A DNA stretch of 64,000 nt, taken from the NCBI RefSeq assembly GCF_000243115.2, contig NZ_CP007035.1:4278001-4342000 (forward strand), in the 5' to 3' direction. The notes under the pieces are model-generated. The model did no database searches. It saw only the letters and a list, made by a program, of their open reading frames with translations, and had not been told where the DNA came from. The position numbers and the translations under genes were made by a program. This DNA comes from Niabella soli DSM 19437 (GTDB taxonomy: Bacteria; Bacteroidota; Bacteroidia; Chitinophagales; Chitinophagaceae). Within the stretch, counting starts at the first letter, position 1. Each line of letters starts with the position of its first letter. Below are positions 12,972 to 22,708 of the stretch, in pieces.

Positions 12972-13349
12972 CTATTTTTTGTTGTCATTGATTCTTTCGT
13001 TGAAAGAGATCCGGTTATTGAAAGGATCGTTTACAATAAAACTGAGCGCTTCATAGAAGGTTTTTTCCAGTCCCGGCCGGTTGTATTTGTAGTTTTTATT
13101 GATCAGTTCCTCATGATAGGCCGCCACTCCTTCACACCATATAAACACATGTGAACCGGGGGTCCCATCGCCATGATGCTCGCTTAAATGCAATACAATG
13201 CCGTCGCGTTCCACTTCAAAATACACGGGGGTATTGGGTTCAAACCGGTGCTCCCAGTTGATGGTAAAGCCCAGCCAGTCTACATAAAACTCCACGGCTT
13301 TATCGTAGTCGAAGATGCGCAACATGGGGATTACTTTTTCTACTTTCAT
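12972..13349 (-). CDS. VOC-fold protein (glyoxalase/bleomycin-resistance-like)
   Basis: A 125-residue single VOC module with the start motif VIPMLRIFDYDKAVEFYVDWLGF and a paired beta pattern (GIVLHLSEHHGD, SHVFIWCEG, NDPFNNRISFNE). It resembles small bleomycin-resistance-like binding proteins rather than glyoxalase I. The activity is unknown. It sits 11 bp after ilvN and 3 bp before the DinB gene, inside the BCAA operon, so it is likely co-expressed. Confidence 0.87.
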   Translation of the reverse strand: MKVEKVIPMLRIFDYDKAVEFYVDWLGFTINWEHRFEPNTPVYFEVERDGIVLHLSEHHGDGTPGSHVFIWCEGVAAYHEELINKNYKYNRPGLEKTFYEALSFIVNDPFNNRISFNERINDNKK

Positions 13350-17048: not shown

Positions 17049-18731
17049 TTAGTCCTCATCTGTTACACATCCCTGAGAAGCATCTTTTACGAGTTTTGCA
17101 TATTTGTACAGGATCCCCCTGTTTACTTTTAACGGAGGCTTTGTCCAACCGGCCTTACGTTGTGCAATTTCTTCATCAGATACCTTTAGCGTAATCGTAT
17201 TATTGACAGCGTCAATTTCGATAACATCATCATCATGCACAAAGCCAATTAACCCGCCTTCGTAAGCTTCGGGGTTAATGTGCCCCACCACAAAACCGTG
17301 CGTGCCCCCGCTAAAGCGCCCATCGGTGATCAATGCCACGCTTTTGCCCAGGCCGGCGCCAATGATGGCGGAAGTGGGCTTCAGCATTTCGGGCATGCCG
17401 GGCGCCCCTTTGGGGCCTTCATTTTTAATAACGACAACATCCCCGGCTTTAACCTTGCCGCTGGAGATACCGGCGATCAGGTTTTTTTCGCCATCAAACA
17501 CACGGGCAGGTCCGGTGAATTTTTCACCTTCTTTGCCACTGATCTTTGCCACGCTTCCTTTTTCTGCCAGGTTGCCATAAAGGATCTGCAGGTGACCCGT
17601 TGCTTTCAGCGGACTTTCCAGCGGATGAATGATGTCCTGTGTTTCAAAATCCAGATCGGGCACTGCTTCCAGGTTTTCTGCAATGGTTTTACCGGTAACC
17701 GTCAGGCAACTGCCGTCAATCAATCCTTTTTGCAACAAATATTTCATTACAGCCGGCACGCCGCCTTTTTTATGGAGGTCCTCCATCAGGTACTTCCCGC
17801 TGGGTTTAAAATCAGCCAACACCGGAATGCGGTCACTTACCGCCTGGAAATCATCCTGCGTGAGGGGGATATCCACGCTGCGGGCCATGGCCAGCAAATG
17901 TAGTACTGCATTCGTGCTGCCGCCCAGTACCATGATCACCGTCATGGCGTTTTCAAAAGCCTGGCGGGTCATGATATCGCGCGGTTTAATATCTTTTTCC
18001 AAAAGCAGCCGGATCGCTCTACCGGCGTCTTCACATTCTTTCTTTTTCTCTTCGCTCAGGGCGGGGTTGCTGCTAGAGTAGGGAAGGCTCATGCCCATCG
18101 CTTCAATGGCAGAAGCCATAGTGTTAGCGGTGTACATGCCGCCGCAGGCCCCGGCGCCCGGGCAACTTTTTTGAACAATGGCCTTAAAATCGGCTTCATC
18201 CAGTTGCCCCGCAATTTTTTGTCCCAGTGCTTCAAAGGCTGAAATAATATTCAGGTCCTGTCCTTTATAATGGCCCGGAGCAATCGTTCCCCCATATACC
18301 ATGATGGCCGGCCGGTTCAGGCGGCCCATGGCCATTAATGATCCGGGCATGTTTTTATCGCAACCCGGAACGGTGATCAAAGCATCATAATACTGTGCGC
18401 CACAAACGGTTTCTATAGAATCAGCAATCACATCACGGCTCACCAGTGAATACCGCATGCCGTCGGTACCGTTGCTCATACCATCACTTACACCAATGGT
18501 GTGAAAGGTAAGCCCCACAAGCCCCTGTTGCCATACCCCATCCTTTACGTGCTGCGCAAGGCCGTTCAAATGCATGTTACAGGGATTTCCGTCGTAGCCC
18601 ATGCTTACAATACCTACCTGCGCTTTTTTCAGATCTTCTTCGGTAAGGCCGATGGCATATAGCTGTGCCTGTGCAGCAGGCTGGGTAGGATCCTGTGTAA
18701 TCGTCCGGGAGTATTTGTTCAGCTCTGTCAT
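17049..18731 (-). CDS. ilvD: Dihydroxy-acid dehydratase
   Basis: Dehydrates 2,3-dihydroxy acids to the 2-oxo acids in valine and isoleucine synthesis, with an Fe-S cluster. The 560 residues show the family motifs: [15 protein letters not shown], then [20 protein letters not shown], and [17 protein letters not shown]. The cysteines for the cluster are present. It follows the LeuB-like gene by 50 bp in the leftward operon. Confidence 0.97.
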
Positions 18732-18781
18732 TATTTTTATTTAGGTATTATGTATTAAAATTGAAGCAATAGAAAGGGTCT

Positions 18782-19771
18782 TTATATAATCGTCGATTTT
18801 TGTAACGCCATATTTTCACCCTTGGCAAAACCAGGGATTGATCCCCGGATAAAATCGCTGACCAGATCTCCGATGGTACTGGTGGAATAATTATTTACGA
18901 TATCTATGTCTTTTGCTACAAAACCATGCAGCAGCGTCCAGTTAACTGCTGTGCGCACAATATGCGCTTCTTCGGGCATATTAAAAAGATTGAGCATCAT
19001 AGCCACAGAAAGGATGCTTCCAACGGGATTGGCCTGGCTTTTTCCCGGCGCACCGGTGCTGCAACCAAAGGCTGGTCCAAAGAATGAAGTGGTTTCGGTT
19101 GCCAAAACACTGGGGATCATTGCCGGTGTGCCGGAGAGGGCGGCTGCCTGGAGAAACAGGTAGTTGCCCGCTGCAGTATCGGTAATGATAATATCAAAAT
19201 CTGCCGGATGATGTAACAACTTGTTGATCGCGGCCTCTACAGATAGCTGCTCCACCATAATAGTACTATAGGTCTTTTGGAACGCAGCGGTTATTTGCTG
19301 CCATGCAGTTGTGACGCCGTCATTTGTGGGCTCAACAATAGTTACTTTTTGCTTTCGGGCGGCTGCCTGTTCAAAAGCCGACTGGGCAATCCGCTGCCGG
19401 CTTTTTTCGTCTGCCGCGGCTACGGGCTCCTGGTAGATCAATAAATTAACACCGTCGCTGTATTTGTTTTTTAAAGGCGACAAATGATGGAGGGAATGAT
19501 AAACCGTAACGGGTTGTGCAATGGCAAATACCTGGAAAGCTTCTTTAATAGCTTTTGCAGCAGTGTCGCTCGAAAACAGCACTGCATCGCTTTGAGCAAT
19601 GGTGCTTTTGTCGTCCGAAGTAAAATAGGACGGCGGGCTATCCGGCGCCAAACGGCTGATCTCAAAATGATGATCATACTGTTCACCAACAGCGTTCAGG
19701 ATTTTAACCGCCTGCTCCATCACTTCGGCGGCGGCTCCTGATTCTTCTATGATCGTAATTCTTTTTTTCAT
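18782..19771 (-). CDS. LeuB/isocitrate-dehydrogenase-fold protein lacking catalytic residues
   Basis: A 329-residue protein that aligns by eye along the whole of 3-isopropylmalate dehydrogenase: EVMEQAVKILNAVGEQ, LSPLKNKYSDGVNLLI, FEQAAARKQKVTIV, DFDIIITD and ANPVGSILSVAMMLNL are shared. Against Thermus LeuB the substrate arginines become Q86, H96 and Q114, the tyrosine loop is deleted, the catalytic lysine is P148, and the three metal/catalytic aspartates become E179, N203 and L207. The NAD loop GSAPDIAGKG reads GCSTGAPGKS. It is therefore probably a pseudoenzyme or has a new function. It is 20 bp after leuA and in frame throughout, so it is not simply decaying. leuC and leuD are not nearby. 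Confidence 0.8.
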   Translation of the reverse strand: MKKRITIIEESGAAAEVMEQAVKILNAVGEQYDHHFEISRLAPDSPPSYFTSDDKSTIAQSDAVLFSSDTAAKAIKEAFQVFAIAQPVTVYHSLHHLSPLKNKYSDGVNLLIYQEPVAAADEKSRQRIAQSAFEQAAARKQKVTIVEPTNDGVTTAWQQITAAFQKTYSTIMVEQLSVEAAINKLLHHPADFDIIITDTAAGNYLFLQAAALSGTPAMIPSVLATETTSFFGPAFGCSTGAPGKSQANPVGSILSVAMMLNLFNMPEEAHIVRTAVNWTLLHGFVAKDIDIVNNYSTSTIGDLVSDFIRGSIPGFAKGENMALQKSTII

Positions 19772-19791
19772 GTTATGAAACGGAGTGACGT

Positions 19792-20952
19792 TTATTGCGC
19801 TGTGCTTACTTTGTCTGCCATCTCCCTCAGATCACTGTCCTCTACCTCTTTTTTCGCATCAGCAACATTTAAAAACTGCTGGTACAATTCATCTACCTGG
19901 TTGCGGTCGAACTCATAGCCCAGGTTCTTAAAGCGGTAGGCCAATGCACTGCGGCCACTGCGGGCAGTTAATACAATGCGGGAAGTATCTGCGCCAACTT
20001 CATGGGGAGCGATAATTTCGTAAGTGGATGATTCTTTAAGAAAGCCATCCTGATGTATGCCTGATGAATGAGAAAAGGCGTTGTCCCCGACGACCGCTTT
20101 ATTGGGCTGCACCACCATACGCATGGTATCGGCCACATTACGGCTTATCGGCAATAGCTGTGTGGTGTCGATACCGGTATAAAGATCCAGCTCCGGATGC
20201 TTTTTAATAGCCATCACCACTTCTTCAAGAGAGGTGTTGCCCGCACGTTCGCCAATTCCGTTAATGGTGCATTCAATCTGGCGGGCCCCGGCAATGGCGC
20301 CGGCTATAGAGTTGGCGGTTGCCAGCCCCAGGTCATTATGGCAATGACAGGAGAAGATGGCTTTATCGGCGTTGGATACATTATTTAAAAGGTAGCTGAA
20401 TTTTTCGGCGTACTGGTGGGGCAGGCAGGAACCGGTGGTATCGGGTATATTTACCACTGTTGCTCCCGCAGCAATAACAGCTTCCACCAGTTGGGCCAGG
20501 AATTGCAGATCGGCCCGGCCGGCGTCTTCTGCAAAGAACTCCACATCCGGAACCAGGTTGCGCGCCAGCTTCACCGCGGCAACCGCACGCTCAATTATTT
20601 TTTCCCGGGTGGTATTGAATTTATACTTGATATGGTTGTCGGAGGAACCGATGCCGGTATGGATACGCGGTCGCACCGCGGGTTTCAGGGCTTCTGCAGC
20701 TACCTCAATGTCTTTTTGTACTGCACGGGTCAGCCCGCAAACAGTGGCATTTTTTACAACGGTAGCGATTTCATTTACCGACGCAAAATCACCAGGGCTT
20801 GAAATCGGGAAACCGGCTTCAATGACATCCACTCCAAGAGCTTCGAGTTGGAGCGCCAGTTTCACTTTTTCATCGGTGTTCAGTTTACAACCCGGCACTT
20901 GTTCGCCATCTCTTAATGTAGTGTCAAAAATAAAAACCTTGTTATCCGCCAT
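19792..20952 (-). CDS. leuA: 2-Isopropylmalate synthase-type enzyme, short form
   Basis: Condenses acetyl-CoA with 2-oxoisovalerate in the first leucine step. Motifs: [13 protein letters not shown] at the N-terminus, [11 protein letters not shown] for metal binding and [17 protein letters not shown]. At 386 residues it lacks the C-terminal leucine-feedback domain of roughly 130 residues found in the 510-residue forms, so leucine inhibition may be absent or different. Homocitrate or citramalate synthase-like specificity cannot be excluded by eye. It is the first gene of the leftward operon. The 190-bp spacer to the divergent gene has no obvious leucine-rich leader peptide or T-box. Confidence 0.88.
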
Positions 20953-21142: not shown

Positions 21143-22708
21143 ATGCCCAGTAGGTCTACAGATGCATTGTTCCAATTAATAAAATCGCTGGAAAAATCTG
21201 AAAAGCGGAACCTGAAGCTGTTTGCCGGCCGGAACTCGGGCGCGGAGGCCTTGAAAAGCATGCAATTATTTGATGCGTTGGATAAATTGCCGGAATATGA
21301 TGAAAAATTGCTTTTAAAAAAAGTGCCCTCTGTAAGCAAACAACAACTATCCAATACAAAGGCATTGTTATATAAACAGATCCTCGGAAGTTTGCGCATC
21401 ATCCGCGAGGATATGAATGTGGATATGCAACTGCGGGAAATGATGGACAGCGCCCGGATCCTCTTTAACAAGGGGCTGTACCTGCAAACATTGAAGGTCC
21501 TCGATAAAATGAAGGAGCTGGCGAGAAACTATCACCAGCTTACTTATTTGCAACAGGCGCTATTTTTTGAAAAAAAAATTGAGGCCTTATTTATTACCCG
21601 GAGCATTCAGAACCGTGCGGATGAATTGACGGAAGAATCCAATGCCATATCGGAACAAATTGCAAATGTGAACGTATTGTCCAACCTGGCGCTGCAACTT
21701 TACAGTTGGTATATTCAAAACGGTCATGCCCGTAATGAGAACGATATAAAAACCGTAAAATTATTTTTCGAAAAAAGCCTTCCTAAAAATGCAGCGGAGT
21801 TAAAGGGTTTTTATGAACAACAATATTACTATCAGAGTTATGCCTGGTATGCCTTTATAAAGCTGGATTTTCTGCTATTTTACCGGTACACCCAAAAATG
21901 GGTGGATGCCTTTGCCGCCAACCCGCAAATGATACCGGTAGAAACCACTATGTATGTTAAAGGGGTGCATAACCTGATGAGCGCGCATTTTGATCTGATG
22001 AACCGCGATGGACTGGCGGTTTGCATCAACCAATTCAAAAAATTTGTGCAAACGCCTTTGGTTCAGGGCAATAATAATAACCGCATTACCGGGTATGTGT
22101 ATTTATATACGGCGGTTATTAACCTGCATTTTCTGGAAGGAACCTTTAACCGGGGGCTGAAAATGGTGCCCTACCTGGAAGAAATGCTTATTGCACACGG
22201 ACAATACCTCGACCGGCACCGGGTGATGGTGTTTTATTATAAGATCGCGTGTCTTTATTTTGGCAGCGGCGATAATAAAAAAACGATCGATTATTTAAAT
22301 CGGATCATTAACCAGAAAGATGACCTGCGCACCGACCTGCAATGCTATTCCCGGTTGCTGCATTTGATTGCGCATTATGAGTTGGGCAATTTCAATTTAC
22401 TGGAATATCTCATCAAATCGGTATACCGGTATATGGCCAAAATGGAGAGCCTGAGCAAGGTGGAGGAGGCGATTTTTCATTTTTTAAGAAATGCATTTAA
22501 GTTCAACGCCAAAACGATCCGGCCCGAATTTGAAAAATTATTAACAAAGCTGAAACGCTACCAGCATAATCGTCTTGAGGCACGGGCTTTTGCTTACCTG
22601 GATGTGATCAGTTGGCTGGAAAGCAAACTCTATGGCATCAATGTACAGGATGTGATCCGCAAAAAGTATTTGCGCGAAACCCGGAGCACAAAAAAAATCG
22701 CTCCGTAA
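21143..22708 (+). CDS. Large helical protein of unknown function
   Basis: A 521-residue protein, almost all predicted alpha helix, with repeating patterns such as YLQTLKVLDKMKELARNYHQL and YKIACLYFGSGDNKKTIDYL that recall TPR-like helical repeats. No signal peptide, transmembrane segment or catalytic motif is seen. It resembles conserved hypothetical proteins of Bacteroidota. It is divergent from leuA, and its stop codon falls in the loop of an intrinsic terminator. Confidence 0.75.
   Translation: MPSRSTDALFQLIKSLEKSEKRNLKLFAGRNSGAEALKSMQLFDALDKLPEYDEKLLLKKVPSVSKQQLSNTKALLYKQILGSLRIIREDMNVDMQLREMMDSARILFNKGLYLQTLKVLDKMKELARNYHQLTYLQQALFFEKKIEALFITRSIQNRADELTEESNAISEQIANVNVLSNLALQLYSWYIQNGHARNENDIKTVKLFFEKSLPKNAAELKGFYEQQYYYQSYAWYAFIKLDFLLFYRYTQKWVDAFAANPQMIPVETTMYVKGVHNLMSAHFDLMNRDGLAVCINQFKKFVQTPLVQGNNNNRITGYVYLYTAVINLHFLEGTFNRGLKMVPYLEEMLIAHGQYLDRHRVMVFYYKIACLYFGSGDNKKTIDYLNRIINQKDDLRTDLQCYSRLLHLIAHYELGNFNLLEYLIKSVYRYMAKMESLSKVEEAIFHFLRNAFKFNAKTIRPEFEKLLTKLKRYQHNRLEARAFAYLDVISWLESKLYGINVQDVIRKKYLRETRSTKKIAP

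Follow-up and report, generated by a model that had tools for sequence, protein, structure and literature searches.

We analyzed a 64,000-nucleotide stretch of the Niabella soli DSM 19437 genome (contig NZ_CP007035.1, positions 4,278,001 to 4,342,000; hereafter the window) and focused on one gene of its leu/ilv operon, located between leuA1 and ilvD. Its product, which we call pseudo-LeuB, appears to be a descendant of the canonical LeuB encoded in this operon (LeuB-I) that has lost most of its catalytic residues and is still maintained by selection, most strongly in its C-terminal part. The explanation we favor, with a probability of about 0.5, is that catalysis moved to a second LeuB encoded elsewhere in the genome (LeuB-II), and that the old operon LeuB-I was kept as a non-catalytic subunit, likely as a partner of an operon enzyme, with LeuA1 as the first candidate.

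Pseudo-LeuB is predicted to keep the LeuB fold

An earlier note on this DNA described an intact frame of 329 codons between leuA and ilvD whose product keeps the fold shared by LeuB and isocitrate dehydrogenase. Both points stand. The open reading frame runs from 19771 to 18782 on the minus strand, and its product matches the Pfam family Iso_dh (PF00180) with 127.7 bits (cut-off 27). On the NCBIfam leuB model TIGR00169 it reaches 123.3 bits, under the equivalog cut-off of 353.2; LeuB-II of the same genome scores 454.0 bits. The nearest solved proteins in a sequence search are isopropylmalate dehydrogenases. An AlphaFold2 model of pseudo-LeuB, built from seven sequences, has a predicted local distance difference test score (pLDDT) of 80.4 and a predicted template modeling score of 0.84. 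When this model was compared with known structures using Foldseek, isopropylmalate dehydrogenases were matched with template modeling (TM) scores up to 0.85 and made up the best 39 of the 50 PDB matches listed. The model of a divergent N. pedocola ortholog (317 aa, pLDDT 76.2) gave TM scores up to 0.82. Because the models of two orthologs match isopropylmalate dehydrogenases, the LeuB fold is most probably retained. Pseudo-LeuB is 41-54 residues shorter than LeuB-I because active-site loops are missing.

Loss of active-site residues and loops

We aligned nine pseudo-LeuB orthologs with 31 canonical LeuB-I and 12 LeuB-II proteins using MAFFT L-INS-i; the two LeuB-I with KSTLI and QSTII tails (L030 and L035) were included. 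Residues are named, and roles assigned, by the numbering of the Thermus enzyme. The equivalent of R94 is Gln in all nine orthologs (Q86 in the window protein) and Arg in 31/31 LeuB-I, and the equivalent of R132 is likewise Gln in all nine (Q114), so that the changes seen in the window are shared across nine Niabella genomes. The earlier note had counted three substrate arginines as lost. That holds for these two and fails for H96: the R104 column is His in 30 of the 31 canonical LeuB-I and G, S or D in LeuB-II, and is not diagnostic.

The loss of the tyrosine loop was confirmed, since the position of the Tyr-139 arm is deleted in every ortholog. A second loop that the earlier list lacked, the VRPEQGLL loop of canonical LeuB, is also deleted in 9/9. 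The column of the catalytic lysine, which is P148 in the window protein, contains no Lys at all (three His, three Asp and one each of Pro, Thr and Glu). The three aspartate columns are occupied in the window protein by E179, N203 and L207, as had been proposed, and they vary among the nine: the first holds six Gln and one each of Glu, Ala and Ser; the second three Tyr, two Asn, two Asp, one Gln and one Gly; the third five Ser, two Arg, one Leu and one His. The D241 equivalent remains Asp in two of the nine. The loop that binds nicotinamide adenine dinucleotide (NAD) is altered as well, with the equivalents of E270, H273 and S275 replaced in 9/9; the substitutes are for the most part hydrophobic residues such as Phe, or Gly (nine Gly in the Glu column; seven Phe and two Tyr in the His column). 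The claim that all key residues differ was too broad: most are lost, but K101 (in SPLK) and N248-P249 (in the ANP motif) are retained in all nine orthologs.

We considered whether catalytic residues were hidden at shifted positions by misalignment and rejected this possibility. The L-INS-i alignment with LeuB-I and LeuB-II places the motifs and restores no Lys, Tyr, Asp or either of the two conserved Arg. Judged by its residues, pseudo-LeuB should be unable to act as LeuB.

Purifying selection is concentrated in the C-terminal part

The ratio of nonsynonymous to synonymous substitution rates (dN/dS) of pseudo-LeuB is 0.143, 0.106, 0.133 and 0.109 for the four ortholog pairs with the least saturation (Fisher p 4e-17 to 3e-44). 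Of the 36 possible pairs, 30 could be computed and gave values between 0.069 and 0.200, and dS was saturated in the other six; only two of the 36 pairs had a dS of 0.9 or less. For comparison, values were obtained for these four pairs whenever both copies of a gene were available; the 12 genes compared, with ABC513 as the last, do not include hyp521, TPR473, VOC, OMT and two DinB genes. Other leu/ilv enzymes gave values of 0.006-0.056 and LeuB-II 0.005-0.009, the ModF-like protein gave 0.094-0.097 and the second ATP-binding cassette (ABC) ATPase 0.064-0.143. These ratios indicate that pseudo-LeuB is under clear purifying selection, looser than that on a core enzyme. Together with nine intact frames and no signs of neutral decay, they bear out the suggestion that the gene is maintained.

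The strongest constraint lies in residues 249-329. Among the columns that are near-invariant in the 31 LeuB-I sequences and that the window protein also contains, all nine orthologs retain the LeuB-I residue at 34 of 130 positions before residue 249 but at 23 of 27 beyond this point (Fisher p 1.3e-8, treating columns as independent). Of the last 39 residues, 33 are invariant. Mean entropy there is 0.14 bits in the nine vs 1.03 in LeuB-I, and over residues 181-248 it is 0.92 vs 0.32; the LeuB-I set is the more diverse, and what can be compared is how the entropies reverse along the chain, not how high they are. In the last 75 codons, dN is 0.057, 0.000, 0.017 and 0.023 in the four pairs. The constraint is thus inverted: the catalytic two-thirds of the protein drifted, while the last 80 residues with the KSTII tail stayed almost invariant.

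A cause at the DNA or RNA level for the conserved 3' end is not supported. Divergence at shared four-fold sites is 0.46 over the last 20 codons (8 sites), compared with 0.59-0.68 over the first 258 columns (32 sites); for the C-terminal part the values are 0.52 and 0.46 (few sites). The codons for KSTII also vary across LeuB-I. Since the tail has not lost variation at four-fold sites, the constraint acts mainly on the protein, perhaps with a weak additional one on the DNA.

Pseudo-LeuB is known from one clade of Niabella and probably descends from LeuB-I

The short pseudo-LeuB form is present in nine of 17 Niabella genomes, including that of the window. The eight other orthologs are 54-79% identical to the window protein. 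All nine carriers have it in the slot from leuA1 to ilvD, and all nine also have LeuB-II (split over two contigs in G158). Two other genomes, G159 and G156, encode a full-length LeuB-I in the operon, 43 and 41% identical and with every catalytic motif present; a PF00180 search detected no LeuB-II in either, G156 being only 74% complete. In the six further genomes LeuB-II is present, and the interval from leuA1 to ilvD gave no Iso_dh match. In four of these deleted-type genomes this interval is 63, 65, 139 and 185 bp long; in the remaining two, G150 and G152, the assembly splits leuA1 into pieces. Among the matches listed from a family sample of 147 genomes, none outside the genus exceeds 44% identity, and frames are at least 356 aa except for three shorter ones (G081, G120 and G121). 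Pseudo-LeuB has so far been found in one genus.

A species tree was built from seven concatenated proteins of 16 genomes, leaving out G150 and using G159 and G156 as outgroup; for G159, G156 and G154 fewer than half of the columns are filled. The nine carriers form one clade (support 100/100) in which all nine keep the gene, and five deleted-type genomes form a separate clade (100/99) that is sister to the carriers. The catalytic residues were lost before the common ancestor of the nine-genome carrier clade.

In a gene tree of 52 LeuB-family proteins (without L030, L035 and the LeuB-II of G158, G154 and G150), pseudo-LeuB is nested in LeuB-I. The enclosing clade comprises 26 LeuB-I and nine pseudo-LeuB proteins with support of 94/99, and a long-branch warning applies to two isocitrate dehydrogenase (IDH) rows and the pseudo-LeuB of G153. 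The stem of pseudo-LeuB measures 2.07 substitutions per site vs a median tip of 0.1. Because the stem is this long, the tree fixes no exact sister inside LeuB-I.

The C-terminal tail offers a further character. Its KSTII ending is present in 29 of the 31 LeuB-I examined and is replaced by KSTLI and QSTII in the other two (L030 and L035), a fraction that is biased upwards in that the loci are mostly best matches to a tail-bearing query. The common tail is an independent sign of descent from LeuB-I. Outside the family, in a sample of 247 genomes from the whole class, both tailed and tailless LeuB occur, and the LeuB proteins beside CimA-like synthases in L132, L136, L139, L140 and L141 have no tail. 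We also considered a tie between the tail and a downstream ilvD. It is not strict, as tailed LeuB occur in L122, L123 and L124 without ilvD in the 18-kb stretches. The tail is thus a mark of LeuB type and not of gene order.

LeuB-I, which is found in Chitinophagaceae and some other Bacteroidia, is therefore the nearest kin and presumed ancestor of pseudo-LeuB, with the same slot, fold and tail. Unlike LeuB-I, pseudo-LeuB is missing two loops along with residues for catalysis and for substrate and NAD binding, and its constraint has shifted to the C-terminal part.

A canonical LeuB is encoded elsewhere in the genome

The N. soli genome (4,697,343 bp, one contig) encodes one further LeuB, LeuB-II at C1:149415-150449, which is canonical by TIGR00169. 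A normal leuB, whose existence the earlier note had left to be checked, is thus present. Two more Iso_dh-family genes are presumably isocitrate dehydrogenases. LeuB-II adjoins leuC, leuD and a gene for a 505-aa CimA-like synthase (LeuA2). The best NCBIfam match of this synthase is the Leptospira citramalate synthase (711.2 bits, below the model cut-off of 950), and it carries the LeuA_dimer allosteric domain PF08502. LeuA1, the synthase of the operon, matches HMGL-like and HCS_D2 domains and has no LeuA_dimer (PF08502) match at an expect value of 1e-5.

A non-catalytic subunit is the favored role of pseudo-LeuB

Under the explanation we favor, LeuB-II would have taken over the dehydrogenase step, and this takeover would have released the catalytic constraints on the operon LeuB. 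Pseudo-LeuB would have been kept for a non-catalytic, protein-binding job performed through its C-terminal part and KSTII tail. The binding surface may already be present in canonical LeuB-I and would survive almost unchanged in pseudo-LeuB, which would most likely serve an enzyme from the same operon as a structural or regulatory subunit. LeuA1 is the first candidate because it lacks an allosteric, leucine-sensing domain of its own, by analogy with HisZ, and its gene adjoins that of pseudo-LeuB here. The proposed action is HisZ-like, with a dead paralog regulating a short enzyme.

HisZ is an inactive paralog of HisRS that regulates a short form of the first-step enzyme HisG (ATP phosphoribosyltransferase) without a regulatory domain, as described in PMC10795190. 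The likeness is that pseudo-LeuB is, by its residues, a dead paralog under apparent purifying selection, and that LeuA1 is without LeuA_dimer. The systems differ in that LeuA1 occurs without pseudo-LeuB in the sister clade, and binding to LeuA1 is a proposal by analogy. The fold of HisZ is unrelated to that of LeuB.

We compared the operon genes for signs of co-evolution, leaving out ilvD of G153 and ilvC of G159. The stem of LeuA1 is 0.068 in the carrier clade vs 0.022 in the deleted clade, and LeuA1 has five derived substitutions in the carrier clade vs one in the deleted clade, with three unresolved. This excess hints weakly at LeuA1 as the partner.

Several observations count against a subunit role of this kind. 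The ratio of stem to within-clade divergence is about the same for ilvD (0.259) as for leuA1 (0.267) and is higher for hyp521 (0.369), a neighboring gene outside the pathway; derived substitutions number 4 vs 3 for ilvD and 12 vs 10 for hyp521. LeuA1 of the sister clade is equally short although pseudo-LeuB is gone, suggesting that LeuA1 has no general need of pseudo-LeuB. Eight of the nine carriers, as well as the two genomes whose operon LeuB-I is catalytic (G159 and G156), encode a ModF-like double ABC ATPase between leuA1 and leuB. The window genome has lost this ATPase (19772-19791) and retained pseudo-LeuB. With the ATPase between the two genes in most genomes, the adjacency to leuA1 is not the ancestral arrangement. 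The dN/dS of pseudo-LeuB is several-fold above that of the core enzymes, which suggests a role less demanding than theirs. Finally, the tail is modeled at low confidence, with pLDDT under 50 for residues 315-329, and the contact surface is not visible in the model.

A broader version of the subunit proposal is that many operon LeuB of Bacteroidia are bifunctional, with a KSTII-tailed C-terminal part that, in addition to the dehydrogenase function, docks on another branched-chain enzyme and regulates or assembles it. In Niabella, catalysis would have passed to LeuB-II and been dropped from the operon protein, so that pseudo-LeuB would be a dedicated regulator of leucine synthesis that lays bare this second function. 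We regard this extension as possible but rather doubtful.

Alternative explanations

Pseudo-LeuB could instead be a metabolite sensor. Its former active-site cleft, in which invariant Q86, Q114 and Q208 replace charged residues, would then accept an uncharged ligand, for instance a branched-chain amino acid or keto acid, and the signal would pass to a partner protein or affect gene expression. The operon position is consistent with a sensor, as are 14 residues in our alignment that are near-invariant in LeuB-I and were altered and then fixed in all nine orthologs. These include R107 to Q86, R135 to Q114, E250 to Q208, S248 to F206 and I246 to Y204 (LeuB-I numbering of L007). However, the positions most central to catalysis are free to vary, the pocket has lost two loops, and constraint is strongest in the C-terminal part and not in the cleft. 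A sensor is therefore unlikely.

A regulatory subunit like those of mitochondrial NAD-dependent IDH (IDH3) is less likely still. Here pseudo-LeuB would form a heterodimer with LeuB-II and tune it, as the beta and gamma subunits do in NAD-IDH. The two cases share a non-catalytic paralog beside a catalytic one within the same dehydrogenase superfamily, and all nine carriers encode the catalytic paralog. Yeast IDH1 is a comparable non-catalytic subunit. The former catalytic helix (residues 199-213), which is also a subunit interface in the superfamily, is conserved and remodeled: six invariant positions differ from LeuB-I and became fixed after the change (A201, Y204, F206, Q208, A210 and A211), and both former catalytic Asp positions (203 and 207) are variable.

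The structures of such dimers speak against this explanation. According to PMC6827300, the active site of human NAD-IDH lies between one subunit and the small domain of its neighbor, the interface consists of two helices and clasp strands, and IDH3 subunits keep the clasp and pair with a catalytic subunit. In Thermus isopropylmalate dehydrogenase, the Asp-217 helix is close to ligands bound to the other subunit (PMC6597716). Unlike IDH3 subunits, pseudo-LeuB is without the arm: the segment equated with the clasp is absent in 9/9 orthologs, and the Lys-185 and Asp-217 equivalents are lost and variable. Here the arm is taken to correspond to the clasp, and Lys-185 and Asp-217 to be the residues lent in trans. 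With the arm and these residues lost, a mixed dimer would not have a complete site, which makes an activating heterodimer unlikely. The extreme conservation of LeuB-II over the four pairs is a further point against such a partnership. As a variant, the mixed dimer may be purely inhibitory.

A new enzymatic function built on the LeuB scaffold would be in keeping with the retained fold and the set of new invariant residues. We consider it improbable because several former catalytic positions vary freely between orthologs: no residue is fixed at the lost Lys, Tyr and Asp columns, and the NAD-loop residues are replaced (catalytic residues elsewhere were not sought). A decaying pseudogene prior to disruption, to which the very long stem and the loss of the gene in the sister clade might point, is refuted for the carrier clade as a whole by nine open frames, the low dN/dS and the near-invariant C-terminus, and is extremely improbable.

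Features of the window and neighboring genes

Coordinates of pseudo-LeuB, its parts and the genes discussed are collected in Table 1.

Table 1. Positions in the window of pseudo-LeuB, its segments and neighboring genes
Feature	Position	Strand	Remarks
Pseudo-LeuB	18782..19771	-	Intact ATG frame, 329 codons; apparent catalytically stripped descendant of operon LeuB (LeuB-I)
C-terminal part, residues 249-329	18785..19027	-	Strongest constraint; 57/81 columns invariant in 9 orthologs
Tail, residues 311-329 (S-IPGFAKGENMALQKSTII)	18785..18841	-	LeuB-I type; 18/19 positions invariant, 9/9 orthologs
Former catalytic helix, residues 199-213	19133..19177	-	Also superfamily subunit interface; 9/15 positions invariant
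Site of missing arm (IYFG...Y), residues 118-126	19394..19420	-	Tyr-139 position absent in 9/9
Site of missing VRPEQGLL loop, between residues 73 and 74	19550..19555	-	From the alignment
leuA1, 386-aa isopropylmalate synthase	19792..20952	-	Directly upstream of pseudo-LeuB, 20-bp gap
ilvD	17049..18731	-	Directly downstream of pseudo-LeuB, 50-bp gap
Second ModF-like double ABC ATPase, 513 aa	9443-10984	-	After ilvC, closing the ilv gene run
125-aa gene	12972-13349	-	Inside the ilv run
521-aa gene (no assigned function)	21143-22708	+	Divergent, beside leuA1

In seven of the nine carriers (not the window or G158), a short leader peptide rich in I, L and V (for example ...FRNILVVIVIVISCRYGGG...) is encoded between pseudo-LeuB and ilvD. 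It is followed by a terminator-like hairpin before ilvD, and the element is likely a branched-chain attenuator (L059:9535-9672(-), with equivalents in L057, L058, L060, L061, L062, L063 and L087). An attenuator-like element also precedes ilvD in G150. The window gap at 18732-18781 has no attenuator, as in G158.

By its family matches the product of the 513-aa gene is a ModF-like double ABC ATPase and not IlvA; in a number of other Chitinophagaceae, genes for related ATPases are found ahead of leuB. The 125-aa gene, provisionally labeled VOC, was detected in eight of the nine carriers and is probably masked by the picking of reading frames in the ninth, G155. None was found in the stretches covered from the other eight genomes (the G156 stretch ends within ilvB). 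The ilvD of G153 (L057:7899-9584(-)) is 78% identical to that of the window, vs 95% for leuA1 and 90% for ilvB, and G149 has a second ilvD (G149:C2:111767-113434) at 63%. This divergence may reflect gene replacement. Several other families of the class have a relative of the 521-aa gene, with 35-49% identity.

Significance

Catalytically dead enzymes that act as regulators are already known. Judged by titles and the openings of abstracts, searches of the open-access literature brought up no report of a dead regulator derived from LeuB and none on this Niabella protein. Within one genus of environmental bacteria, and on a resolved tree, the operon LeuB is found in three states: catalytic, gone, and stripped but conserved. 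What has been conserved points to a part of LeuB that may have a role other than catalysis, and a moonlighting role of LeuB in Bacteroidota thereby becomes testable.
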